Shown one piece after another: positions 2,922 to 32,038 of a stretch of DNA of 32,038 nucleotides; positions within the stretch are counted from its first letter, which is position 1; each line of letters begins with the position of its first letter. This stretch comes from a virus. Position numbers and translations under genes: made by a program. The notes beneath the pieces are model-generated. The model made no database searches, had not been told where the DNA came from, and worked only from the letters and a program-made list of their open reading frames with translations. The stretch covers positions 1 through 32,038 of IMG/VR virus record IMGVR_UViG_3300032296_002236; one strand, given 5' to 3'.

Positions 2922-3410
2922 ATGAAAACACCCGAACTTTGGAAACCCATCCAAGAATTAGACGAAAACTACCACATTTCTAATCGTGGTGAGGTTAAAA
3001 GTTTTATGCAGGACAAAGTTAATGGCAGACTATTAACTCCCCAAAAGATGTCTAATGGTTATATTATGTACTTAATCCATTACAAAAATGAATGGCTTTC
3101 TTTTTATGCCCATAGATTGTGCGCTCAATACTTTTTACCTAATCCAGAGAATTTACCTGAGGTTCACCACCTTAACAAGCAAAAAGACTATAATGACATC
3201 CAGAATTTAAAATGGATAACGCATATTGATAATGTGCGCCTAGATCAATCTAAAAATATTATCTGCAAACATCCAGACGGCAGACAATATCTGGCTCAAG
3301 GAACCAGACATGCAGAACAATTAACTGGGGTTCCTCGCAGAACAGTTATGAAAGCATTAGCATCCAGTGGTAAAACCACTAGCAATTGGATTTTTAAATA
3401 TAACAAATAA
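2922..3410 (+). CDS. NUMOD4/HNH homing endonuclease
   Basis: 162 residues. NUMOD4 at the N-terminus (LWKPIQELDENYHISNRGEV), then the HNH core around PEVHHLNKQKDYNDIQNLKW with H82-H83 and downstream Asn residues. The C-terminal part (about 110-155) contains CKHPDGRQYLAQGTRHAEQLTGVPRRTVMKAL, resembling the NUMOD1-type helix-turn-helix region of such enzymes. It should cut or nick DNA as a selfish homing nuclease. ATG at 2922 lies behind a terminator and promoter-like element. The next HNH gene starts one base after its stop, so the two are probably co-transcribed. It is too diverged from the gene at 1475 to be a recent duplicate. Confidence 0.88.
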   Translation: MKTPELWKPIQELDENYHISNRGEVKSFMQDKVNGRLLTPQKMSNGYIMYLIHYKNEWLSFYAHRLCAQYFLPNPENLPEVHHLNKQKDYNDIQNLKWITHIDNVRLDQSKNIICKHPDGRQYLAQGTRHAEQLTGVPRRTVMKALASSGKTTSNWIFKYNK

Positions 3411-3411
3411 G

Positions 3412-3909
3412 ATGGAAAAATGGAATGAAGTTGTAGATTATCCTAACTATGAAATCTCTACCCAGGGTAACGTACGGAGATGGGATAATAAAAAGGGAGA
3501 AGTAAAAGTGAGTATAGCACCTGCTCCCACTTACCTTATGTTTAACACCTGGGTAAACAAGAAATATAAAAAACTATATGTGCATAGAGAAATGATGCGG
3601 GCATTTAATCCCACTGAGGATCCTAATTTAACCCATGTTTGTTTTAAAGACAACAATATTTACAATTTAAATCTGGAAAATCTTTATTGGTCTAGCCAAA
3701 ATAAAAGAATGAGGAGACGTTTTAAAGAGGGTGGATACGCTAGAGGACAAGAACATCATCGTGCTAAATTAACTGACGAGGATGTTATTAAAATTAGAGC
3801 AATGTGGGATAGTGAACAATACACCCAGAAAGTCATAGCAGAGGAATTTGGTATTCACGTTAGCACCTGTGCTAATATTATTAGTAAACGTTTTTGGCCT
3901 CACATATAA
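3412..3909 (+). CDS. NUMOD4/HNH-type endonuclease, third copy, altered core
   Basis: 165 residues. It starts with a NUMOD4-like motif (KWNEVVDYPNYEISTQGNVR). The HNH core has drifted: where active relatives have VDHID, this one has LTHVCFKDNNIYNLNLENLY. H75 and the Asn positions remain, but the preceding acidic residue is Thr74. The C-terminus (about 118-165) is a good helix-turn-helix ending IISKRFWPHI, close in pattern to the tail of the enzyme at 1475. ATG at 3412 follows the previous stop by one base. I prefer it to an upstream in-frame start at 3367, which would overlap the previous gene. Activity is uncertain; it may be decaying or may act only as a DNA binder. Confidence 0.8.
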   Translation: MEKWNEVVDYPNYEISTQGNVRRWDNKKGEVKVSIAPAPTYLMFNTWVNKKYKKLYVHREMMRAFNPTEDPNLTHVCFKDNNIYNLNLENLYWSSQNKRMRRRFKEGGYARGQEHHRAKLTDEDVIKIRAMWDSEQYTQKVIAEEFGIHVSTCANIISKRFWPHI

Positions 3910-4758: not shown

Positions 4759-4920
4759 ATGAATCTAGATCAGATCTCACAAGAACAACTAGACAGATTA
4801 AAACAAGAACAGATTATTAATGCTTATCGAAAGAAGCCGAAGAAGATCAAAACAATCAAAGTGAAAGCGACTAGAAGTAGGGATTTAGTTGCTGAAGCTT
4901 TGGCTAAGATAAATCCTTAG
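4759..4920 (+). CDS. Small basic hypothetical protein (53 aa)
   Basis: ATG at 4759 to TAG at 4918-4920. The sequence starts MNLDQISQEQLDRLKQEQI and then becomes Lys/Arg-rich (YRKKPKKIKTIKVKATRSR), ending with an amphipathic helix. It lies just past the hairpin array and behind an A-rich leader (AAGAAACAAATT), which fits the start context of the other genes. Its last 17 bases overlap the 3' end of the minus-strand gene at 4904. The basic character suggests nucleic-acid binding, but no family is recognised. Confidence 0.5.
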   Translation: MNLDQISQEQLDRLKQEQIINAYRKKPKKIKTIKVKATRSRDLVAEALAKINP

Positions 4921-5320
4921 CCATTCGCTTTGCCTTTCGCTTTGCGTTATATCTATTTTGGGCTTCTTGACTCCGGCCACAAATGCGGTATTTAACTTGA
5001 GGTTTATTCCAAGCCTGTGGATGAATGCGAATTTCATAAGCTTGAATACCAGTGCCAATAGATCTATCACCCAGTAGTCTAGTTTCTAAATACTCATGTT
5101 CTGTTAATGTCTGTAACACAGCAGAAAGATTAGTTAATTGAAAGCCTGGATTATGAATCCGCATAGCTTTAGCTAGATCAGCACGGGTAAAATAGCTCCA
5201 ATATTCGTCTCCTACACATAAATCATTGTATAAACTCCAGAACACCATATAGTGTCTGGCTTTAAGACCGCTTTCGTCGAATAGCGATTTAGGGAAGGGT
5301 TTTCCTCTGAGAATACACAT
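4904..5320 (-). CDS. Putative winged-helix DNA-binding protein
   Basis: 138 residues on the minus strand. KARHYMVFWSLYNDLCVG, TRADLAKAMRI, LTNLSAVLQTLTEHEYLETRL and GIQAYEIRIHP give the helix-helix-recognition-helix-wing order of a winged-helix protein. The end is strongly basic (RYNAKRKAKRMAKDLS). It is transcribed opposite to its neighbours, and convergent with the small gene at 4759. On its own strand TATATTCG lies two bases upstream of the ATG, so a near-leaderless transcript is possible. A role as regulator of the early region or as a replication partner is inferred from fold type and location only. Confidence 0.6.
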   Translation of the reverse strand: MCILRGKPFPKSLFDESGLKARHYMVFWSLYNDLCVGDEYWSYFTRADLAKAMRIHNPGFQLTNLSAVLQTLTEHEYLETRLLGDRSIGTGIQAYEIRIHPQAWNKPQVKYRICGRSQEAQNRYNAKRKAKRMAKDLS

Positions 5321-5353: not shown

Positions 5354-5848
5354 TTGACGAAAGATCAATGGATCTCCCAACACTACGAGGAATTTAAACA
5401 AGCCTGCTTACGTATATCACAAGATTCAGACCTATATGAAGAACTGTGTCATTATGTGTTAAGCGAGTTTATGCTGCGCCCAGATGTCCAGACGATAGTG
5501 GATTCAGGCGGTGCATTCTTTTACTGCCTACGTATGTGCACTAACTCGTGGAAAAGCGTGACCTCGCCTTTCTATCGTCAATATCGTCAGCAATGGGAAA
5601 GCATCACAGAGTTAACCCCACAGACAGAAGAAATCGCAGATGAAGAAGAAATAGACATTGAAGCATTAGCAGAGATAGCTCGTAAACAACTAGATGGATT
5701 AGGTTGGTATGAGAAAGAACTGTTTACTGCTTATGTGGAACACAATCAAAATGCTTCAGCGTTAAGTAAGAGCACGCACATTCCTCGGACCAGCATTAAT
5801 CTGACTGTGAGAAAGGTCAGAACTTACATCCGCACCAATTTAAAGTGA
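5354..5848 (+). CDS. Sigma-70-like/HTH protein of phage type
   Basis: 164 residues. It follows the pattern of a phage family often labelled RNA polymerase sigma-like: KDQWISQHYEEFKQACLRI, then DLYEELCHYVLSEFMLRPDV, then FFYCLRMCTNSWKSVTSPFYRQYR (region-2-like), an acidic linker (about 90-110), and a C-terminal HTH (LFTAYVEHNQNASALSKSTHIPRTSI) ending in VRTYIRTNLK. The likely job is to direct host polymerase to phage promoters, or to bind DNA as a regulator. No ATG lies near the 5' end, so TTG at 5354 is the best start. It opens the co-directional small-gene cassette that runs to 7325, and might recognise the ATATTCAY promoter-like sites. Confidence 0.65.
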   Translation: MTKDQWISQHYEEFKQACLRISQDSDLYEELCHYVLSEFMLRPDVQTIVDSGGAFFYCLRMCTNSWKSVTSPFYRQYRQQWESITELTPQTEEIADEEEIDIEALAEIARKQLDGLGWYEKELFTAYVEHNQNASALSKSTHIPRTSINLTVRKVRTYIRTNLK

Positions 5849-5879: not shown

Positions 5880-6302
5880 ATGGCAAATATGGACACAAAA
5901 CAACTACACTATTGGCAATTCGAAGGCTCAGAAACCATCCACAGCGCAGAAGGCTGGAGATTAGAATCTGCCATTATGGAAACACGCCACCGATTAGGCT
6001 TACCCATTTGGCAGTCTTATAAAATACTAAAGAACTATGCACCAACTAACCCTATTCCTGCAACTGCTCCCGATAGCAGCAGCGTCAGCGATTCTGACGT
6101 CCCAAATCTGGTACCAAAACGCACTCGAAAGGCTAAAGCTAAACTCGAAACCATGGAATTGCAGTCTATGCCTATCCACGTGGACATCACTAATCCTCTT
6201 GATCTTGTTCCCGGCATCCTTCGGGATTACTTCGCCGCTGGATTATCTGACACCGTTGCTGATAGCGATAGCCTCGGATCTGATCCACAAGAAATTAAAT
6301 GA
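5880..6302 (+). CDS. Hypothetical early protein, C-terminal half doubly coded
   Basis: 140 residues. The first about 50 (LHYWQFEGSETIHSAEGWRL, ESAIMETRHRLGLPIWQSYKI) look folded. The rest is disordered or charged (SSSVSDSDVP, KRTRKAKAKLE). The start may be ATG at 5880 or 5889. Its TGA (6300-6302) overlaps the ATG of the next gene as ATGA, the same coupling used elsewhere in this genome, which argues that the frame is real to the end. Codons in the shared part keep A/T or pyrimidine third bases typical of this phage. A second frame from 6037 encodes a membrane protein. Function unknown. Confidence 0.6.
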   Translation: MANMDTKQLHYWQFEGSETIHSAEGWRLESAIMETRHRLGLPIWQSYKILKNYAPTNPIPATAPDSSSVSDSDVPNLVPKRTRKAKAKLETMELQSMPIHVDITNPLDLVPGILRDYFAAGLSDTVADSDSLGSDPQEIK

Positions 6303-6309
6303 ATACTAA
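6037..6309 (+). CDS. Small membrane protein with CxxC motif, overprinted
   Basis: 90 residues in the frame one base ahead of the 5880 gene. It has a hydrophobic N-terminal segment (LFLQLLPIAAASAILTSQIW), a loop with KPWNCSLCLSTW, a second hydrophobic segment (SLILLILFPASFG), a third (LDYLTPLLIAIASDL) and a short polar tail. The 'KPWxCxxCxxxW' loop followed by a membrane helix resembles small membrane proteins of Bacteroidota phages, so I regard it as probably genuine. It overlaps the 5880 gene by 266 bases and the 6299 gene by 11. The role is unknown; a lysis-related (holin-like) job is possible, since no other holin candidate is visible. Confidence 0.5.
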   Translation: MHQLTLFLQLLPIAAASAILTSQIWYQNALERLKLNSKPWNCSLCLSTWTSLILLILFPASFGITSPLDYLTPLLIAIASDLIHKKLNEY

Positions 6310-6541
6310 TATGCCCAAAGAAATAACCCTAACTTCTGAAGTGTATGCCTTGTTTAACGAACATGGACATCTATTTGAAAGACCTAAAAATGTCTGGACC
6401 CAAGACCAAATGGCGATAGTGTACCTCATCTATAACACCCTAACAGGAAAGATGGATAAGGATACTGGTTGCTCTAGTTGCCGCACTACCCACGTGAATC
6501 ACGTGCGCCGAGCCTATGAACAATATAAAACCACACTATAA
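6299..6541 (+). CDS. Small Cys-motif phage protein
   Basis: 80 residues. An N-terminal part (EITLTSEVYALFNEHGHLFE) is followed by WTQDQMAIVYLIYNTLTGKM and the C-terminal DTGCSSCRTTHVNHVRRAYEQY. The GCSSCR..HVN motif recurs in a widespread family of small phage proteins of unknown function; the CxxC may bind metal. The ATG overlaps the upstream TGA (ATGA), indicating translational coupling. The next gene starts one base after its stop. Confidence 0.7.
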   Translation: MNTNMPKEITLTSEVYALFNEHGHLFERPKNVWTQDQMAIVYLIYNTLTGKMDKDTGCSSCRTTHVNHVRRAYEQYKTTL

Positions 6542-6542
6542 T

Positions 6543-6788
6543 ATGGGATTCCAAATCATCCAAAAGCTTTCCAGCAAAGAGAAAGCCCGCAAATGCGAAG
6601 AATGTCTGCAGTTCTTACAAGAAGAAGGCCAAATGCCTGATTTAGCAACCATTCGTAAAACGCTATTAGAAGCTTATGTCTTAACGCAAATGTTAGCTAA
6701 TGATTTACATCATCAAGAGGAAAAAGCCTTAGCAGCGAGCAAATTAGCAAGCCATATTGAAGAATTAGTAAATACAATTAAAGCATGA
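6543..6788 (+). CDS. Hypothetical helical protein (81 aa)
   Basis: ATG at 6543 follows the previous stop by one base; an earlier in-frame ATG at 6516 would overlap that gene and is less likely. The product is 81 residues, almost wholly helical (EKARKCEECLQFLQEEGQMP, LLEAYVLTQMLANDLHHQEE, KLASHIEELVNTIKA), with a CxxC at residues about 17-20. Its TGA overlaps the next ATG at 6785. I recognise no family. It belongs to the coupled small-gene cassette. Confidence 0.6.
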   Translation: MGFQIIQKLSSKEKARKCEECLQFLQEEGQMPDLATIRKTLLEAYVLTQMLANDLHHQEEKALAASKLASHIEELVNTIKA

Positions 6789-7325: not shown

Positions 7326-7397
7326 CTAAGGTAGGGCACACTGTCCCGTAGCCCAAAGGGGGTTTTGCCCCGCTTTACAAGAAAATTCACAAAAAGC

Positions 7398-7994
7398 ATG
7401 CCTAGAAGGAAGCCCAAGCATTTATGGCAGCCGGGAGAGTCCGGTAATCCGAAGGGGAAGCCCATAGGAAGCACCTCTGAGATTAATAACCAGATTAAAC
7501 AAGCATTTGCCTTATTGCTTAATAACCAATTGCCTAACCTAGAAGCCTGGTTGGCAGAGGGAGCTAAAAAGGACCCCCTTAAGACTGCAGACCTACTCTT
7601 AAGGGTCTCTGAGAGGTTTATGCCTAGTCTATCCAGGACAGAACTGGTAGGCAAAGATGGCGAAGCCTTTACCCCAATCACTATCCACCTACCCAACATT
7701 CCTAAGGTGTCCCTAGGGGTAGGCGCCCCCACCGATTTGTCTTTGCCTACCTCTCCAGGAGGGGAAATCAAATTCCTTGGTGAGCCCTCCGCGTTTACAA
7801 ATATAGACGGGGAGCCTTCACAGATAGCCCCCGGACCCATGGACCCCCCGGTATCTGAACCCACCGAGGAGGCTCCCTCACCAATGTTCCATGTCCCACC
7901 CCTAGCTCTCAGCCCCAACGTGCTCAAGGATATCCAAGAGAGGGGGGACACTCCCCTGGCCCTGGATGGGGGGATGGGGGAACCTACCAGATAA
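7398..7994 (+). CDS. Putative terminase small subunit
   Basis: 198 residues. The N-terminus has HLWQPGESGNPKGKPIGS, the 'f.kGqSGNPkGrp.Gs' motif of the small-subunit-like family placed before terminase large subunits. A helical segment (about 28-70) would form the DNA-recognition and oligomer part. Residues from about 90 on are Pro/Gly/Ser-rich and probably disordered. ATG at 7398 is chosen over an in-frame TTG at 7365. The second half of the gene is much richer in C and G than the genome at large. The large subunit follows at 8314. Role: recognise phage DNA and hand it to TerL. Confidence 0.65.
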   Translation: MPRRKPKHLWQPGESGNPKGKPIGSTSEINNQIKQAFALLLNNQLPNLEAWLAEGAKKDPLKTADLLLRVSERFMPSLSRTELVGKDGEAFTPITIHLPNIPKVSLGVGAPTDLSLPTSPGGEIKFLGEPSAFTNIDGEPSQIAPGPMDPPVSEPTEEAPSPMFHVPPLALSPNVLKDIQERGDTPLALDGGMGEPTR

Positions 7995-8313: not shown

Positions 8314-9570
8314 ATGTCAGCTAACAACTTTAAATTTCCAGATGCTTACCATCCTATCTTTTATTCGGATAAGACCTATTACATTATTTCGGGCGGTAGA
8401 GCTGGGGGTAAATCAACCGCCGTGGCTGCTGCGTTTCTGGTGTGGCTATTTGGAGACACCTATTTTCGTGGGGTGGTCAGCCGTTACACTCTGAGATCTA
8501 TTTCCAGTTCCATTTACCGAGACATCCTAGATCTAATCGATAAGTGGGGTTTAAAAGACCATGTTAAAATCACGGGCGAAGAAATAGTTAATCCCAAGAA
8601 TGGTAACATGATTATTACCCACGCGTTAAAAATCTCAGAGAACTCGGCTTCTGCTAAATCCAAAGGTCTAGCTAACTGTACCCACTTGCTAGTAGACGAA
8701 GCGCTAGAGATGGAGCGGGAAGAAGAATACATCAAGCTAATTGACTCCTTCCGTATGAAAGGGGTAGACCGCAAGATCTTCCTGTGTTTTAATCCCGGAG
8801 CTAAAAGCCATTGGATCTTTAAAAGGTTCTTTACCCCAGATGGCCAACCTCATCCTAAATGGGCAGAGGATCACGAGTTCATTCATACCACCTATAAGGA
8901 CAATGCGGAGAATCTAGATCCTAAAAAAATCGCCGAGTGGGAGCGCATGGCTAAGATTGATCCAGAATATTTTGATCACCACATTCGCGGGAATTGGAGA
9001 GACCTCCATGAAGGCCAAGTGTTTACCAAGTGGAATTGGAGTTATTACGAACCTGATCCTGAAGCAGAAGTGGTCTACGGTCTAGACTTTGGGTTTATGC
9101 GAGATCCCTCAGCTTGTGTGAAGGTCATGAAAAAGGGCCAAAGACTTTGGATTCAAGAGGTGCTATACCAACAAGGTTTAACTAACGAGGATCTGAGTCA
9201 GCGGTTGCTGAAAGCTGGAGTGAGCCAACATGCTTCGATTGTTGGAGACTCTGCTGAACCTAAGAGTCTGGAGACTTTGCGGAGACTCGGTTGGCGTAAT
9301 ATACGTCCAGCACTTAAAGGCCAAGACTCTGTGCGTGCTGGCATTGACACCATAAACTCGTATGAAGTTTATGCAGACCCCATGAGCTTTAACCTGCGTC
9401 TGGAGTATGACAATTACGTCTATCGTCAAGGCACTGACAAACCTGTTGATGATTGGTCCCATCTCATGGATGCGTTGAGATACGCTGTGGGGACTAGTCT
9501 GCGCATAGGTAGTTCTTCCGCTTATGCAATTGCTTCTCCTCGAAGTCGCCATAGTCTAGAATGGATTTAA
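8314..9570 (+). CDS. terL: Terminase large subunit
   Basis: 418 residues, typical length. It is the packaging motor that cuts concatemeric DNA and pumps it through the portal. Walker A is GGRAGGKST (27-35) and Walker B is LLVDE (125-129). The RNase-H-like nuclease domain shows its acidic residues at D258 (YGLDFGF), D312 (VGDSAE) and D386 (HLMDALRY). ATPase and nuclease sites therefore look intact. The start at 8314 follows a terminator, so a local promoter within 8297-8313 or read-through is required. The stop shares four bases with the convergent minus-strand gene (TTAA at 9567-9570). The portal is not next to it, which is unusual. Confidence 0.96.
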   Translation: MSANNFKFPDAYHPIFYSDKTYYIISGGRAGGKSTAVAAAFLVWLFGDTYFRGVVSRYTLRSISSSIYRDILDLIDKWGLKDHVKITGEEIVNPKNGNMIITHALKISENSASAKSKGLANCTHLLVDEALEMEREEEYIKLIDSFRMKGVDRKIFLCFNPGAKSHWIFKRFFTPDGQPHPKWAEDHEFIHTTYKDNAENLDPKKIAEWERMAKIDPEYFDHHIRGNWRDLHEGQVFTKWNWSYYEPDPEAEVVYGLDFGFMRDPSACVKVMKKGQRLWIQEVLYQQGLTNEDLSQRLLKAGVSQHASIVGDSAEPKSLETLRRLGWRNIRPALKGQDSVRAGIDTINSYEVYADPMSFNLRLEYDNYVYRQGTDKPVDDWSHLMDALRYAVGTSLRIGSSSAYAIASPRSRHSLEWI

Positions 9571-25627: not shown

Positions 25628-28198
25628 ATGGCAGGAACGGTAAAATTGGGAGCTACGGGAGGTCAAATCCTCTTTTCAACAAGCGGAACATCAGGTTTTT
25701 CAGCAACTTCTGGCTATGGATCGCTCTATTATGGCGATGATTTTCAGCTTAGAATCAAAGATCCAAGTGGAAATATCACTATATTAGGAGCTGGTTCCGG
25801 AACAGCAGGTACCAACGGTAGCTCTGGTTCGTCAGGAATTTCTGGTAGCAGTGGCACAAGTGGCAACAATGGAAGTAGTGGAACATCAGGTGCAGACGGT
25901 AGTTCTGGTTCGTCAGGAATTTCTGGTAGCAGTGGCACAAGTGGCAACAATGGAAGTTCTGGAACATCAGGTGCGGACGGTAGCTCAGGTTCATCTGGAA
26001 GTTCTGGAGAATCTGGAACATCAGGTAGCAGCGGAACGTCAGGACAAGATGGTTCTTCAGGAACCAGCGGGATTAATGGATCTGGTCTTTCTACTAAAAA
26101 TATAGAAATATCAGCAGCAGCTTTTACCTATTCTGCTCCTGATTCTACAGCAAGTATAACATTTGCTCAACCTTTTGGATCTACAAATTATTCAATAGAA
26201 CTTACTTGGAAAAATACAAACTCTGGTAACTGGTTTTCTTTAAGTTCAGGAGCAGGAATAGCAGTAAAAATTAATAATAAAACTGCTGCTGGATTTGATA
26301 TTGTTTATTCTGGATTTAACCTACCTGGTACTATACCAGGCTATGTTGCTTATATTACTGCAACTGCTTTAGGGGAAACTGCAGTACCTGGAACATCAGG
26401 AACATCAGGACAATCTGGTTCATCTGGAAGTTCTGGTGAATCTGGAACATCAGGTAGTAGCGGAACATCAGGACAGTCTGGTTCATCTGGTAGTTCTGGT
26501 GAATCCGGAACATCAGGTAGTAGTGGAAGCTCAGGACAATCTGGTTCTTCGGGCAGTTCAGGAAATTCAGGAAGTTCAGGAACATCAGGAGTTAATGGAA
26601 CAGGATTTATTTGGGAGGGTACATGGGACGTTAATCTATCCTATAGCGTTAATGATGTTGTAGAATATAACGGATCTTCTTATATTTGTATTCTTGCTGC
26701 TTCGTCATTGTTACCCCCACCCTCATCAAATCCTACAAATTGGTCTTTATTAGCACAAGCAGGAACTAACGGTACATCTGGTAGCTCTGGTTCATCAGGA
26801 ACCAGCGGAGCGAATGGCTTAGGTCTTTCTGCTAGAAATATTTTTAAAATTTATTCGGATTGGACCTATAGTGCACCAAATTCTTATATTGATATTACAT
26901 TTGCACAACCATTTGGATCTACAGATTATTCTATCAATGTCATTTATACATTTAACGGAACGAGATGGGTGAGTTTAAGTACTGGATCAGACACAGCTAT
27001 TACAAGTAAAACAGCTTCTGGATTTAGATATACTATTGAACTTACAAATATCCCAGCTCAACCTAATTTCCTATCTTACTTTACTTGTATTGCACTAGGA
27101 GAAACGGGTGTACCGGGCACTAGCGGAACTGCTGGAAGTAGCGGAACATCAGGACAATCTGGTTCATCTGGAAGTTCTGGACAATCTGGAACATCAGGTA
27201 GTTCAGGAAGCTCGGGGCAATCTGGTTCATCAGGAAGTTCTGGTGAATCTGGAACATCAGGTAGTAGTGGAAGCTCAGGACAGTCTGGTTCTTCTGGCAG
27301 TTCGGGAAGTTCTGGTGAATCTGGAACATCAGGTAGTTCAGGAACCTCAGGTAGCAGTGGTTCATCAGGTTCAGCAACTATTAACAACAACGCAGACAAC
27401 AGAGTAATAACTGGTTCTAATACACCAGGAGAGTTAAACGGAGAATCTACCTTATCATTTAGTAGTAACACATTAAATATAAATTCTATTTCTATCGGTA
27501 GAGGAGCTAGTGGAGATCAAAGTAACCTAGGTATTGGTGTTAATTATCCTATTGATACTGCAACAACAGGACTTAGAAATCTTGGAATTCATCATTCTGC
27601 TTTAAATGCAATAACCACGGGTGAAGATAACAGTTTTATTGGATATGGGGCAGGCCCCCTAATAACAACAGGAAATACAAACACCTGTTTTGGAAATTAT
27701 ACCTTATATAATGCCACAGGAGCAGATTCAAATGCCCTGATAGGATATGGAATTTTAGCTGATGCAACAGGGACAAACATAAACAAAAATACAGTAGTGG
27801 GAGTTTCTAGCTTGTATAATTTGCCCAACGGGAGTAACAATACCGTGATGGGGGCAGACACTGCCAATAATTTAACAGGAGCTTCTAATTCAAATACCAT
27901 CATCGGTGCCCAAATTAATACAGGAGGCACGGCAATTTCCAATCAAGTTATACTTGGAGATGGAGATGGTAATATTAGATTACGTATTACTCCGAATGCT
28001 ACTGGAACTGCAGAATTTGCAACCTCTATTAAGACCCCAAATCCTACAGGAGGTACAGCAGCAGAATGGAAACTTGGTTCAGTCTCTACAGCAGGATGTA
28101 CAATTTTTGATGCCGCTGCTTTTAATGACCAAGTAATAGAAGTAGAAATTGCTGGAACAACATATTACATTCCAGTGGTAATACCTAATTATTGTTAA
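25628..28198 (+). CDS. Collagen-like tail fibre with carbohydrate-binding-like module
   Basis: 856 residues. An N-terminal anchor (VKLGATGGQILFSTSGTSGF; LYYGDDFQLRIKDPSGNIT) resembles that of the 28775 fibre. Gly-X-Y tracts without Pro (GSSGSSGISGSSGTSG style) run at about 58-150, 255-323, 380-395 and 496-580. Between them are two copies of one domain (about 152-252 and 399-493; both ITFAQPFGST-N/D-YS ... ALGET-A/G-VPGTSG) and a small aromatic module (about 327-378; WEGTWDVNLSYSVNDVVEYN) like family 5/12 carbohydrate-binding modules. The C-terminal part (from about 584) has a TINNNADNRVITGS motif and YadA-head-like NTxxG repeats. It probably trimerises and binds surface glycans. Confidence 0.85.
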   Translation: MAGTVKLGATGGQILFSTSGTSGFSATSGYGSLYYGDDFQLRIKDPSGNITILGAGSGTAGTNGSSGSSGISGSSGTSGNNGSSGTSGADGSSGSSGISGSSGTSGNNGSSGTSGADGSSGSSGSSGESGTSGSSGTSGQDGSSGTSGINGSGLSTKNIEISAAAFTYSAPDSTASITFAQPFGSTNYSIELTWKNTNSGNWFSLSSGAGIAVKINNKTAAGFDIVYSGFNLPGTIPGYVAYITATALGETAVPGTSGTSGQSGSSGSSGESGTSGSSGTSGQSGSSGSSGESGTSGSSGSSGQSGSSGSSGNSGSSGTSGVNGTGFIWEGTWDVNLSYSVNDVVEYNGSSYICILAASSLLPPPSSNPTNWSLLAQAGTNGTSGSSGSSGTSGANGLGLSARNIFKIYSDWTYSAPNSYIDITFAQPFGSTDYSINVIYTFNGTRWVSLSTGSDTAITSKTASGFRYTIELTNIPAQPNFLSYFTCIALGETGVPGTSGTAGSSGTSGQSGSSGSSGQSGTSGSSGSSGQSGSSGSSGESGTSGSSGSSGQSGSSGSSGSSGESGTSGSSGTSGSSGSSGSATINNNADNRVITGSNTPGELNGESTLSFSSNTLNINSISIGRGASGDQSNLGIGVNYPIDTATTGLRNLGIHHSALNAITTGEDNSFIGYGAGPLITTGNTNTCFGNYTLYNATGADSNALIGYGILADATGTNINKNTVVGVSSLYNLPNGSNNTVMGADTANNLTGASNSNTIIGAQINTGGTAISNQVILGDGDGNIRLRITPNATGTAEFATSIKTPNPTGGTAAEWKLGSVSTAGCTIFDAAAFNDQVIEVEIAGTTYYIPVVIPNYC
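25823..25957 (+). repeat. DNA direct repeat in fibre collagen-like tract
   Basis: 54 bases at 25823-25876 are repeated exactly at 25904-25957, a unit of 81 bases or 27 residues. Near-identity at DNA level, including synonymous positions, implies recent duplication or gene conversion. Confidence 0.85.
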
Positions 28199-28774: not shown

Positions 28775-31700
28775 ATGAGCGGTAAATTACGCATACAGAA
28801 CGAAGGCGAGATTCAATTTGGACAATGGAGTACTTCAGGTACCGGACCAGCTAATCCATCAGCAGGATATGTAACACTATATTCACAAGGTAGCCAATTA
28901 AAGGCTAAAGATTCTAGTGGTAATATACAATTCTTTGGTAGCTCAGGAACTGCTGGAACGTCAGGTCAATCTGGTTCATCTGGAACGTCAGGTCAATCTG
29001 GTTCATCCGGAACGTCAGGTCAATCAGGAACTTCAGGCAGTTCAGGTCAATCGGGCAGTTCAGGAAGTTCAGGACAGACTGGTACATCAGGAAGCTCGGG
29101 GCAAACGGGTTTATCTGGAACATCAGGAACATCAGGAACTTCATTACCTGGTTCAGCAGGAACTAGCGGTAGCTCGGGACAATCTGGAACATCCGGCAGC
29201 TCAGGAGAGTCTGGAACATCAGGCAGCTCAGGAGAGTCTGGAACATCAGGCAGCTCAGGTACCTCTGGCGAATCTGGTACATCAGGTAGCTCGGGACAAT
29301 CAGGAACATCTGGTAGTTCTGGCGAATCTGGAACATCCGGCAGCTCAGGAGAGTCTGGAACATCAGGCAGCTCAGGTACCTCTGGCGAATCTGGTACATC
29401 AGGTAGCTCAGGTCAATCTGGTACATCAGGTAGTTCTGGAGAGTCTGGTACGTCAGGTAGCTCTGGAGAGTCTGGTACGTCAGGTGTTTCAGGAAGTTCT
29501 GGAACCAGCGGTGTGTCTGGACAATCAACTTCATTATTTCCATACAATGCAAGAACTAATTTACAATCAGGAAATCCAGGTAACACAAATATAATTTGGA
29601 ACAACGCTACCCAAACATCTGCAACCCAAATTAACATATCACATTTAGATCGAAACAATATTGATATTGATGTTTTCTTAGCACTAATACAATCAGGTTC
29701 AACTATTATTATTCAGGACGCAAACGATTCAGCAAATTATCAACGCTGGACTTTTGGAACCGGAGTAGAAGCAGCACCAAATTCATATTGGGAATTTCCT
29801 GCAACATATATTGATGGTGGATATTCATTTACAAATGGTCATAATATTCTTGTAATCATTGCACAACAACCAGTTACAACTTCAGGTACTTCAGGTAGTT
29901 CAGGAACCAGCGGTGCTAACGGGGCGACTGGTGCAACCGGTGCAGCAACAACTATTAACAACAACGCAAACAATCGTGTGATAACTGGTTCAGATACACC
30001 AGATACTTTAGAAGGTGAAACTGCTTTAACCTTCGACGGATCACAACTAAGTGTTAACGGAATTAGAATTGGCTTAGGTGCAGGTTCTATAGCAACCAAT
30101 ATAAAAATTGGTAATGACGGAAGTTTAGCTGCTAACACTACAGGATCAAATAACTTAGTTATTTCTACTCAACCAAGCTTTCCAGCATCATCTACAGGAG
30201 CAAACAATATAATTGTTAGTGCTGGAGCAACCGGTGCTTTATCTCTTGCTACCGTTGCCAGTAGTAATAATATAATGGGAGTAAATATTTTCCCAGCCTC
30301 TACCAGAACTATTAATAATAATATAATTAACGGAAACGCAATAGGTGCACAAGCTACTGGAGGTAACGTCACAGCTAATATTATTTTAGGAAATTCTACT
30401 TTTACCAGGGGAGCTACCGCATCTTCTAGTATAATGATTGGTACTGCGATAGCAGCAGCAACTGGATCTAACGTAGCTTCTTCCATATTAATTGGTCTTG
30501 GTGTAGCAGAAAATTTCTCCGGCACAGGAGCAACTTTTTCTAGTTCAATAGCAATTGGAGGGGGTGCTTTAGCTGCTGCAAGCAGCGCACATGCAACAGG
30601 TTCAACTATACTAGGATTTAATGTAGCAGGGTCAGCAACAAACGTTAAATTTAGTAATACGTTTATGGCTGGAGCATCAGCAGCAAACGCAGCTTCTGGT
30701 GCTACCTTTAGTAATGCAGTAGTAATTGGCAGTAACGCAATGCGTAATATAACAGGAACTACAGTTAGTACTGCAAATATCATTGGACATCAAGTTGCCC
30801 AAAATGCAGTTAATGGTGGTTTTGATAATGCTACTTTAATTGGACAGAACATAGGTCAAAATGCATCTGGTGGAACTTTTGCCTCTACTGTTGCAATAGG
30901 AAGTACCATTGCACAAAGTGCTACCGGCGCCTCGTTTTCAAATGCTATTTTACTGGGTACAGCAGTAGCTCAAAATTCTTCAGGATCGAATAATTCTAGC
31001 GCCGTCCTAATCGGAAACGGGGTATTACAAAACAATACTGCAACCAATAATTCTAATGCTGTACTAATAGGAAATAGTGTTGGTTCTAGTTCAGGAACAG
31101 GAACATTCCAAAACTCTACTTTTATTGGAGCAGATTCCGGAACTAACTGTAATTTAGATAATGCTAACTCGTTCGTTCTAGGTGTAAATAGTGCTAAGTT
31201 CGGAGGACAATCTTCTTCCGTAGTAATTGGATCTTTCGCTCATCAAGGAGTTACAGGAACTCAACTTCAAAGTAACATTGCTATTGGTCAATCCGCAGCG
31301 ACCACTAACAGCACTAATCAGAACATTTTCATCGGTGCGGGAGTGGCTCCAAATCTTACAGGAGGTACAGGAAGACATACTATCATTGGTCCAAATAATA
31401 CGGCGGGTGGATTAACCGGTGGCACAGCAAATACGATCATTGGTGGATCTATCAGTGGATTAACTGGTACGTTAAGTAACAATATTTTACTAGCAGACGG
31501 AGACGGTAACGTCAGAATTAAAGTAGATGGAGCAACTGCAGCTTATATTAATACGCCGCTAGTTCCTAAGAAAGATTCTTCAGCAAACATTGAAGCAATT
31601 GCTTCACCAGTTGCTGGTATGGTTATGTACGATACCACAAACAACACGTTGGATCTTTATAACGGATCAGCTTGGCAGGCAGTCTCAACCGCTACAGATT

Positions 31701-32038
31701 ATGGATATTTTGCTTATACTGATGCAACTATGGCTATTAACTTTACTGCAAAAGGTATTACAATGGCTTCGCAATCAGCAAATGGTATCACAGTAGCTTC
31801 TAATACTAGATTAACATTTGGTAAAGCAGGTACTTATAGAATTACTACCAGTCATTTTCCAGGAACAGATTATGCTCAAGAACTTTGGTTAAAGAAAAAT
31901 GGTTCTACAAATATTACAGGTACATCTACACAATTAAGCGGAAATGGTTCTACAGTATATTCTCAAGCATCTTGGGATTACGTTGCCGCCTTTAGTGCTA
32001 GTGATTATGTTGAAGTAATAATAGCAGGTGAGACAGGT
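28775..32038 (+). CDS. Second collagen-like tail fibre (continues across the window end to 204)
   Basis: Open from ATG 28775 to the last base (1088 codons); with 124-204 it is 1114 residues. Order: N-terminal anchor (LRIQNEGEIQFGQWSTSG; LYSQGSQLKAKDSSGNIQFF) like the 25628 fibre; a long Gly-X-Y tract, about 55-251, of GTS/GSS/GQS/GES triplets; a globular insert (about 252-369); a short Gly-X-Y piece with GANGATGATG; TINNNANNRVITGSDTP; a very long YadA-head-like region (about 410-900) built of repeats such as SNAVVIGSNA and NATLIGQNIG; an ILLADGDGNVRIK neck; and a C1q-like end (about 975-1114). It is the probable main receptor-binding fibre. Confidence 0.88.
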   Translation, partial: MSGKLRIQNEGEIQFGQWSTSGTGPANPSAGYVTLYSQGSQLKAKDSSGNIQFFGSSGTAGTSGQSGSSGTSGQSGSSGTSGQSGTSGSSGQSGSSGSSGQTGTSGSSGQTGLSGTSGTSGTSLPGSAGTSGSSGQSGTSGSSGESGTSGSSGESGTSGSSGTSGESGTSGSSGQSGTSGSSGESGTSGSSGESGTSGSSGTSGESGTSGSSGQSGTSGSSGESGTSGSSGESGTSGVSGSSGTSGVSGQSTSLFPYNARTNLQSGNPGNTNIIWNNATQTSATQINISHLDRNNIDIDVFLALIQSGSTIIIQDANDSANYQRWTFGTGVEAAPNSYWEFPATYIDGGYSFTNGHNILVIIAQQPVTTSGTSGSSGTSGANGATGATGAATTINNNANNRVITGSDTPDTLEGETALTFDGSQLSVNGIRIGLGAGSIATNIKIGNDGSLAANTTGSNNLVISTQPSFPASSTGANNIIVSAGATGALSLATVASSNNIMGVNIFPASTRTINNNIINGNAIGAQATGGNVTANIILGNSTFTRGATASSSIMIGTAIAAATGSNVASSILIGLGVAENFSGTGATFSSSIAIGGGALAAASSAHATGSTILGFNVAGSATNVKFSNTFMAGASAANAASGATFSNAVVIGSNAMRNITGTTVSTANIIGHQVAQNAVNGGFDNATLIGQNIGQNASGGTFASTVAIGSTIAQSATGASFSNAILLGTAVAQNSSGSNNSSAVLIGNGVLQNNTATNNSNAVLIGNSVGSSSGTGTFQNSTFIGADSGTNCNLDNANSFVLGVNSAKFGGQSSSVVIGSFAHQGVTGTQLQSNIAIGQSAATTNSTNQNIFIGAGVAPNLTGGTGRHTIIGPNNTAGGLTGGTANTIIGGSISGLTGTLSNNILLADGDGNVRIKVDGATAAYINTPLVPKKDSSANIEAIASPVAGMVMYDTTNNTLDLYNGSAWQAVSTATDYGYFAYTDATMAINFTAKGITMASQSANGITVASNTRLTFGKAGTYRITTSHFPGTDYAQELWLKKNGSTNITGTSTQLSGNGSTVYSQASWDYVAAFSASDYVEVIIAGETG
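29222..29409 (+). repeat. DNA direct repeats in second fibre
   Basis: 71 bases at 29222-29292 are repeated exactly at 29339-29409 (unit 117 bases, 39 residues). An overlapping 52-base repeat links 29181-29232 with 29325-29376. These would allow recombination that changes the length of the collagen-like shaft. Confidence 0.85.
31916..32038. repeat. Terminal direct repeat, right copy
   Basis: Exact copy of positions 1-123. Joining the ends through it keeps the fibre gene open (codon boundary at 31916 and at 1) and lets it end at the TAA of 202-204. That supports circularity. Confidence 0.95.

Follow-up and report, generated by a model that had tools for sequence, protein, structure and literature searches.

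A younger gene very probably laid over an older membrane-protein gene in a clade of uncultivated tailed phages

Results

Organization of the locus

The window (the whole 32,038-nucleotide stretch of viral DNA that was analysed) carries two genes on the same strand, one of which lies almost wholly within the other. An ORF for a 90-residue product had been placed by the first-pass annotation at 6037–6309, in an alternative frame of a gene starting at 5880, and both coordinates and frames proved right. The nested ORF begins 157 nt into the 5880 ORF in phase +1, and its stop lies 7 nt beyond the enclosing stop. The features of the locus, with the evidence for each, are as follows.

5354..5848, plus strand: sigma-factor-like / HTH gene, directly upstream, a conserved neighbour of the membrane gene (homologues in the clade of relatives and in the control loci described below)
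5880..6302, plus strand: enclosing gene, 140 aa, alternative start at ATG 5889 possible (30 homologous pairs; AlphaFold2)
6013..6036, plus strand: putative A/T-rich translation initiation region of the nested gene, within the enclosing gene (base composition in 30 sequences)
6037..6302, plus strand: very probable dual-coding stretch of 266 nt, nested frame in +1 of the enclosing frame (codon-position composition, same-column tests)
6037..6309, plus strand: nested gene, 90-aa membrane protein (family motif, clade pairs, AlphaFold2, BFVD fold matches to DUF1360 proteins of uncultured phages)
6148..6183, plus strand: KPWNCSLCLSTW signature, nested protein residues 38–49, CxxC at 42 and 45 (P39, C42 and C45 invariant in 28 aligned relatives)
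6311..6541, plus strand: downstream partner gene, 76 aa, DTGCSSCR motif, start most likely one base after the nested stop
7365..7994, plus strand: probable small terminase gene (position; homologues immediately before TerL in L124 and L128)
8314..9570, plus strand: large terminase (PHROG terminase matches; used to find the clade)

The label sigma-like for the 5354–5848 product was given by inspection only, Pfam and PHROG searches having returned no convincing match, and no family match was obtained for the probable small terminase.

The nested product and its family

As single-sequence queries, the nested and enclosing proteins gave no match in PHROGs, in Pfam (above threshold), in 50,697 phage records or in viral contigs, so that the database search proposed earlier for the 90-residue protein came back empty. 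Against the 50,697 phage records, tblastn with the window protein plus four more representatives of the family was also without a match, and the family was not recovered in PHROGs. A signature scan and a route via the terminase were therefore needed. Viral contigs were searched for the KP-x-[ND]-C-x-x-C...W signature with a degenerate DNA pattern, which returned at least 120 loci, every match listed being a short ORF with membrane segments (~70–125 aa between stops). Among the matches listed, 119 loci are without the 5880 gene and were used as the control set; homologues of the membrane frame outside the nested arrangement are thus many. The sole match of a scan of the genome collection (L143) was set aside as chance, being a long GC-rich ORF without membrane architecture.

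The AlphaFold2 model of the nested protein, built on 28 relatives (mean pLDDT 82), consists of three long helices and one short one, spanning residues 2–22, 24–32, 43–62 and 67–89. Together with the family of short membrane ORFs, the predicted helices bear out the earlier view of a membrane protein. Of the up to three membrane segments then proposed, all three are recovered as long helices in the model, but a simple hydropathy cut-off yields only two. The C-terminus is short and basic, and the charges point to a probable N-out/C-in topology. Y26, P39, C42, C45 and L52 are invariant in the 28 aligned relatives.

Five of 28 clade members match Pfam DUF1360 (PF07098) weakly; in the one checked, the match lies over the CxxC half. 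The member with the best E-value scored 18.9 bits, under the Pfam cut-off of 21 bits, and the window protein has no match to the model. In a Foldseek search of the nested model against BFVD, the best two matches were proteins named DUF1360 from uncultured Caudovirales phages, A0A6J5NR03 (TM 0.78/0.83) and A0A6J7WH63. Both have a probability of 1.00 but E-values of 0.035 and 0.12, and a DUF1360 fold of the nested protein is therefore suggestive only. The likeness to DUF1360 lies in the predicted fold and in the weak matches of some clade members, the difference in the unmatched window protein and the sub-threshold score. A fold search against the PDB gave no meaningful match. Weak Pfam matches to SLATT_1, DUF3302 and similar families were dismissed, being under the cut-off and limited to single members. 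By its Pro-x-x-Cys-x-x-Cys signature, the nested frame is a member of a family of small phage membrane proteins that is large, unnamed and DUF1360-like. We know of no DUF1360 gene that lies inside another gene.

Conservation of the gene pair

The arrangement was seen first in L023 and then in L122, and further relatives came from a profile scan and a terminase-guided scan. The same pair is present in 30 distinct sequences, the window and 29 others, always in phase +1 and with an overlap of 113–266 nt. The carriers are uncultivated tailed phages that form one clade and have genomes of ~30 kb. Since the arrangement is kept in about 30 related phages, it is a real overlapping gene pair and no chance frame. 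In 22 of the 30 the enclosing frame covers most of the membrane gene, ending 7–85 nt before the nested stop (long form). In the remaining eight it stops just past the KP signature (short form); homologues with an early stop in one frame, of the kind that the first-pass annotation had named as telling against the overlap, do therefore occur, but these still overlap by 113–152 nt. The membrane frame is unbroken throughout the clade except in one contig with a deletion (L168), at identities to the window protein down to ~22%. Enclosing proteins are poorly conserved, at 12–30% identity to the window protein over full length.

In an unrooted tree of the sigma-like neighbour, the short forms do not cluster together but fall into two groups, and long forms occur on either side of the tree, which suggests that the long overlap is probably ancestral in the clade.

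The exceptional contig L168 (about 6449–6775) is near-identical to L169; through its deletion, the N-part of the enclosing protein runs on without a frame change into the C-part of the nested one, as a real variant or an assembly error.

Coding in both frames

With the nested protein fixed and genome codon usage applied, ~4.1 stops were expected in the enclosing frame of the window, and none occurred before its own stop (P = 0.005). With the enclosing protein fixed, ~5 were expected in the nested frame and none was seen (P = 0.0007). Upon permutation of the nested gene's own codons an open enclosing frame was unsurprising (P = 0.72), and the decision thus falls to comparative evidence.

In the 119 control loci (among the matches listed), stops are common in the corresponding frame, mostly 3 to 7 each. 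Under synonymous recoding with each genome's codon usage, the overprinted genes had 65 stops in the enclosing frame versus 105 expected, and the control genes 578 versus 545. Codons ending in T make up 0.158 of the nested gene versus 0.290 in the genomes; the corresponding values for the controls are 0.316 and 0.315. Within the overlap, membrane genes with long partners have third positions of a composition like that of first positions (G 0.38, T 0.13). Where a short partner ends early, third positions of the membrane gene are normal again beyond its stop (G 0.19, T 0.25); relatives that have no partner gene show G 0.18 and T 0.31. The same alignment columns read G 0.45 and T 0.12 with a long partner versus G 0.20 and T 0.23 with a short one (chi-square p = 3e-13), and upstream of the short partner's stop the two forms do not differ significantly (p = 0.06); as related sequences are not independent, these codon-position p-values are optimistic. 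This reversal of the G/T signal within a single gene, past the partner's stop, is hard to explain otherwise. Codon-position composition and the same-column contrast, in line with the conserved pairs, indicate that both frames code, as had been claimed from the window.

For the synonymous-site constraint that had been suggested as a test, the outcome depended on the gene used as a yardstick. Divergence at 4-fold sites was lower in the overlap than in the terminase (Mantel-Haenszel OR 0.48, z = -4.4) but not significantly lower than in the sigma-like gene (z = -0.6). In view of the latter, amino-acid constraint on the enclosing tail appears weak or unproven.

Under a first alternative, translation of the overlap would be limited to the membrane frame. 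The enclosing gene would then give a short N-domain protein, and its openness farther downstream would be a by-product of the membrane gene's hydrophobic composition. Truncated enclosing versions, the poor conservation of the tail and the 23–72% of trials in which permuted nested codons leave the enclosing frame open are consistent with this. Nevertheless, the nested codon bias is abnormal only within the overlap and reverts beyond the partner's stop, and 114 control genes of the family (among the matches listed) show no bias, which makes it improbable that the membrane frame is read alone.

Frameshifting could also fuse the enclosing N-domain to the membrane protein and so yield a membrane-anchored N-domain. 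The phase is +1 in 30 of 30 pairs, and the L168 contig carries such a fusion through its deletion. A constant phase is however also expected from descent and from the scarcity of stops over hydrophobic genes in +1, and every nested ORF begins with an ATG of its own, preceded by an A-rich tract, so that we consider a fusion very unlikely. Finally, a chance nested ORF within a 5880 frame that is alone the gene, favoured by nothing but the unmatched nested protein (PHROGs, Pfam, 50,697 phage records), can be dismissed almost with certainty, since it is already refuted by the motif-scan family and the conserved clade pairs, the invariant signature and membrane architecture being common to 119 loci without the 5880 gene (among the matches listed), and since it is at odds with the DUF1360 fold match and a downstream gene that begins at the nested stop.

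The relative age of the two genes

The membrane gene had been described as printed onto the 5880 gene. The distribution of the two genes points to the reverse. The enclosing N-domain was detected beside the membrane gene in none of the 119 control loci (among the matches listed). In these loci a homologue of the sigma-like gene is present in 102, mostly just upstream of the membrane gene (iterated HMM search), a homologue of the downstream GCxxC gene in 80, mostly starting beside the membrane gene's stop, and a terminase in 69, the contigs often being fragments. The usual order is the sigma-like gene, the membrane gene directly behind it, then the GCxxC gene and the terminase. As members of the membrane family occur widely in loci that have no 5880 gene, and the 5880 gene was found in one clade only, the 5880 tail would have been laid over an older membrane gene. 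Taking coding and genealogy together, it is very likely on the sequence comparisons that 6037–6302 is a conserved dual-coding stretch in which the membrane gene is the older and the enclosing gene the younger newcomer. The simplest history would place the birth or insertion of the enclosing gene between its sigma-like and membrane neighbours, with the 3' end of the newcomer running over the older gene. Codon-usage correlation with the genome (nested 0.60, enclosing 0.65) does not decide the genealogy.

In the wider family (matches listed), the sigma-like gene itself often reaches with its 3' end into the membrane gene (L004, L005, L033, L041, L046, L069, L073, L121 and others). These overlaps measure up to 101 nt, and 32 of the 39 are in the same +1 phase.

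The enclosing protein

AlphaFold2 predicts a beta-beta-alpha-beta domain at residues ~8–50 of the enclosing protein (blocks with pLDDT >90), followed from residue 54 on by a disordered acidic tail (pLDDT ~50–60). The dual-coding stretch maps to this disordered part, in agreement with the disorder originally noted for the shared region. A fold search of the domain against the PDB gave no meaningful match, and no transmembrane segment was found in the 5880 product by hydropathy. On this model the protein appears to be an accessory one, whose tail would bear the overlap constraint by being disordered.

In several long enclosing proteins (L023, L124, L146, L155, L156, L189, L190 and L193) a GC-x-x-C motif follows right after the nested start. 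It resembles the motif of the downstream GCxxC protein and is missing from the enclosing protein of the window.

Translation start and the downstream gene

Upstream of the nested ATG, the A fraction in the 30 sequences is 0.90–0.93 at -13/-14 and the AT fraction 0.83–0.97 at -11 to -17. Such an A/T-rich tract fits hosts that do not depend on Shine-Dalgarno pairing, as in Bacteroidota. Ribosomes may start the membrane protein independently at this site within the enclosing gene.

Of the 30 clade members, 26 (L184 doubtful) have a C-x-x-C ORF that starts -4 to +3 nt from the nested stop; in L023, L122 and L126 the junction of nested stop and downstream start reads TAAgATG. The ATGA coupling at 6299 and the overlap of the nested gene into a third gene, both taken as given at first, are probably not real, as the downstream gene begins at the nested stop in relatives. 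By this comparison, the downstream gene of the window most likely starts at ATG 6311, one base past the nested stop, rather than at 6299. Translational coupling, if any, would accordingly be with the nested gene: the GCxxC start adjoins the nested stop, and ribosomes that terminate there could move directly into the GCxxC gene.

Possible function of the nested protein

The nested CxxC lies beside the second helix on the basic, therefore probably cytoplasmic, side. Together with the neighbouring DTGC-x-x-C-R gene this suggests joint action of the two proteins. We tentatively propose, from motif and gene order, a three-helix inner-membrane protein with a CxxC on the cytoplasmic face that would work with the adjacent soluble GCxxC protein. 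As a hypothesis, the pair might share a metal ion and thereby place a late phage function at the membrane.

The main rival, in line with the lysis-type gene suggested by the first-pass annotation, is a holin of class I topology (three helices, N-out, C-in) that times lysis. Three helices with a short basic C-terminus are predicted by AlphaFold2, no other small membrane ORF on the window's coding strand looks like a gene, and the nested gene is present once in 16 of 16 related genomes. It is located upstream of the terminase, between a late-type regulator and the terminase, a position that would resemble the Q-S-terminase order of lambdoid phages. The class I features are, however, three long helices in the model but two by hydropathy, with the orientation taken from charges. 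No PF08291, PF01510 or PF00959 endolysin, and thus no recognisable lysis cassette, was found in the 16 related genomes, a result that other endolysin types could escape and for which the PF05838 search was without a working control. Another conserved small TM protein is present in 3 of 10 inspected genomes. The invariant P-x-x-C-x-x-C and the constant pairing with GCxxC would moreover be left unexplained, CxxC not being a hallmark of holins. A holin is for these reasons possible but somewhat doubtful, behind the CxxC pair, and the rest falls to other membrane roles, e.g. exclusion.

The second small membrane ORF (~69 aa) lies behind the portal and DUF6712 genes and was seen in L196 (2919–3128), L212 (5999–6211) and L210 (minus strand). 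No homologue of it was found in the window.

Discussion

Comparison with known overlapping genes

Overlapping genes with a membrane product are already known from phiX174 E and from spanins (PMC8227390, PMC6139136). In phiX174, gene E likewise encodes a membrane protein and lies within gene D, on the same strand but in another frame, and third positions of E are T-poor (14%; PMC8227390), as are those of the nested frame here. There, however, D is taken as ancestral and E as new, whereas here the nested membrane gene is very probably the older. E is a lysis gene, and the nested gene of this tailed phage of ~30 kb is a holin candidate at most.

Embedded or overlapped two-component spanins such as lambda Rz/Rz1 also have a nested same-strand gene in the +1 frame, which starts ~0.4 into the enclosing gene and ends near or just beyond its end, and such pairs are missed by gene callers (PMC6139136). 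Unlike in spanins, the nested product here is without an N-terminal lipobox (its first Cys is residue 42) and has three predicted membrane helices, and the enclosing product has no N-terminal membrane helix. An embedded spanin pair was rejected on the missing lipobox and the missing helix.

Overprinted viral genes with a disordered newcomer are alike in that the clade-restricted frame is disordered over the overlap and the old frame structured (PMC8227390). The newcomer at this locus differs in having its own folded N-domain outside the overlap. It therefore looks like a gene whose 3' end has run downstream rather than a wholly new internal ORF. The nested and enclosing pair, its reversed genealogy and the membrane family behind it were not found in the open-access literature searched.

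Implications of the overlap

Considered as a whole, the locus may represent a younger gene laid over nearly the whole of an older membrane gene, with dual coding kept through deep divergence and the overlap shortened in two separate groups. Through the overlap, the enclosing, membrane and GCxxC products may be linked in their synthesis or fate, the last two acting via paired CxxC at the membrane in an undescribed process. This full picture is plausible but is put forward with some reserve. Long same-strand overlaps are usually dropped by gene callers, and few dsDNA phage cases have enough relatives to test. Here ~30 divergent pairs, relatives with an early stop as a built-in control and more than 100 single-frame outgroup genes offer a natural experiment in which the reshaping of an old frame by a new one can be followed. 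The locus also reveals a membrane-protein family, large and unnamed, that is constantly accompanied by a CxxC partner beside the terminase block and is a good target for experiments.

Other features of the window

The nearest isolates by terminase are phages of Bacteroidota (Nonlabens, Riemerella and Bacteroides phages), and this ~32–34% identity is only an indication that the host phylum may be Bacteroidota. An ORF of 138 aa on the minus strand (4904–5320), opposite to its neighbours, looks genuine and of helix-turn-helix type and has no family match. The region between the portal and replication genes contains three scattered HNH endonuclease genes (1460–1972, 2922–3410 and 3367–3909). At 25628–28198 and 28775–32038 lie genes for two large proteins with collagen-like repeats, probably receptor-binding fibres, the first of which has a CBM_5_12 carbohydrate-binding module.
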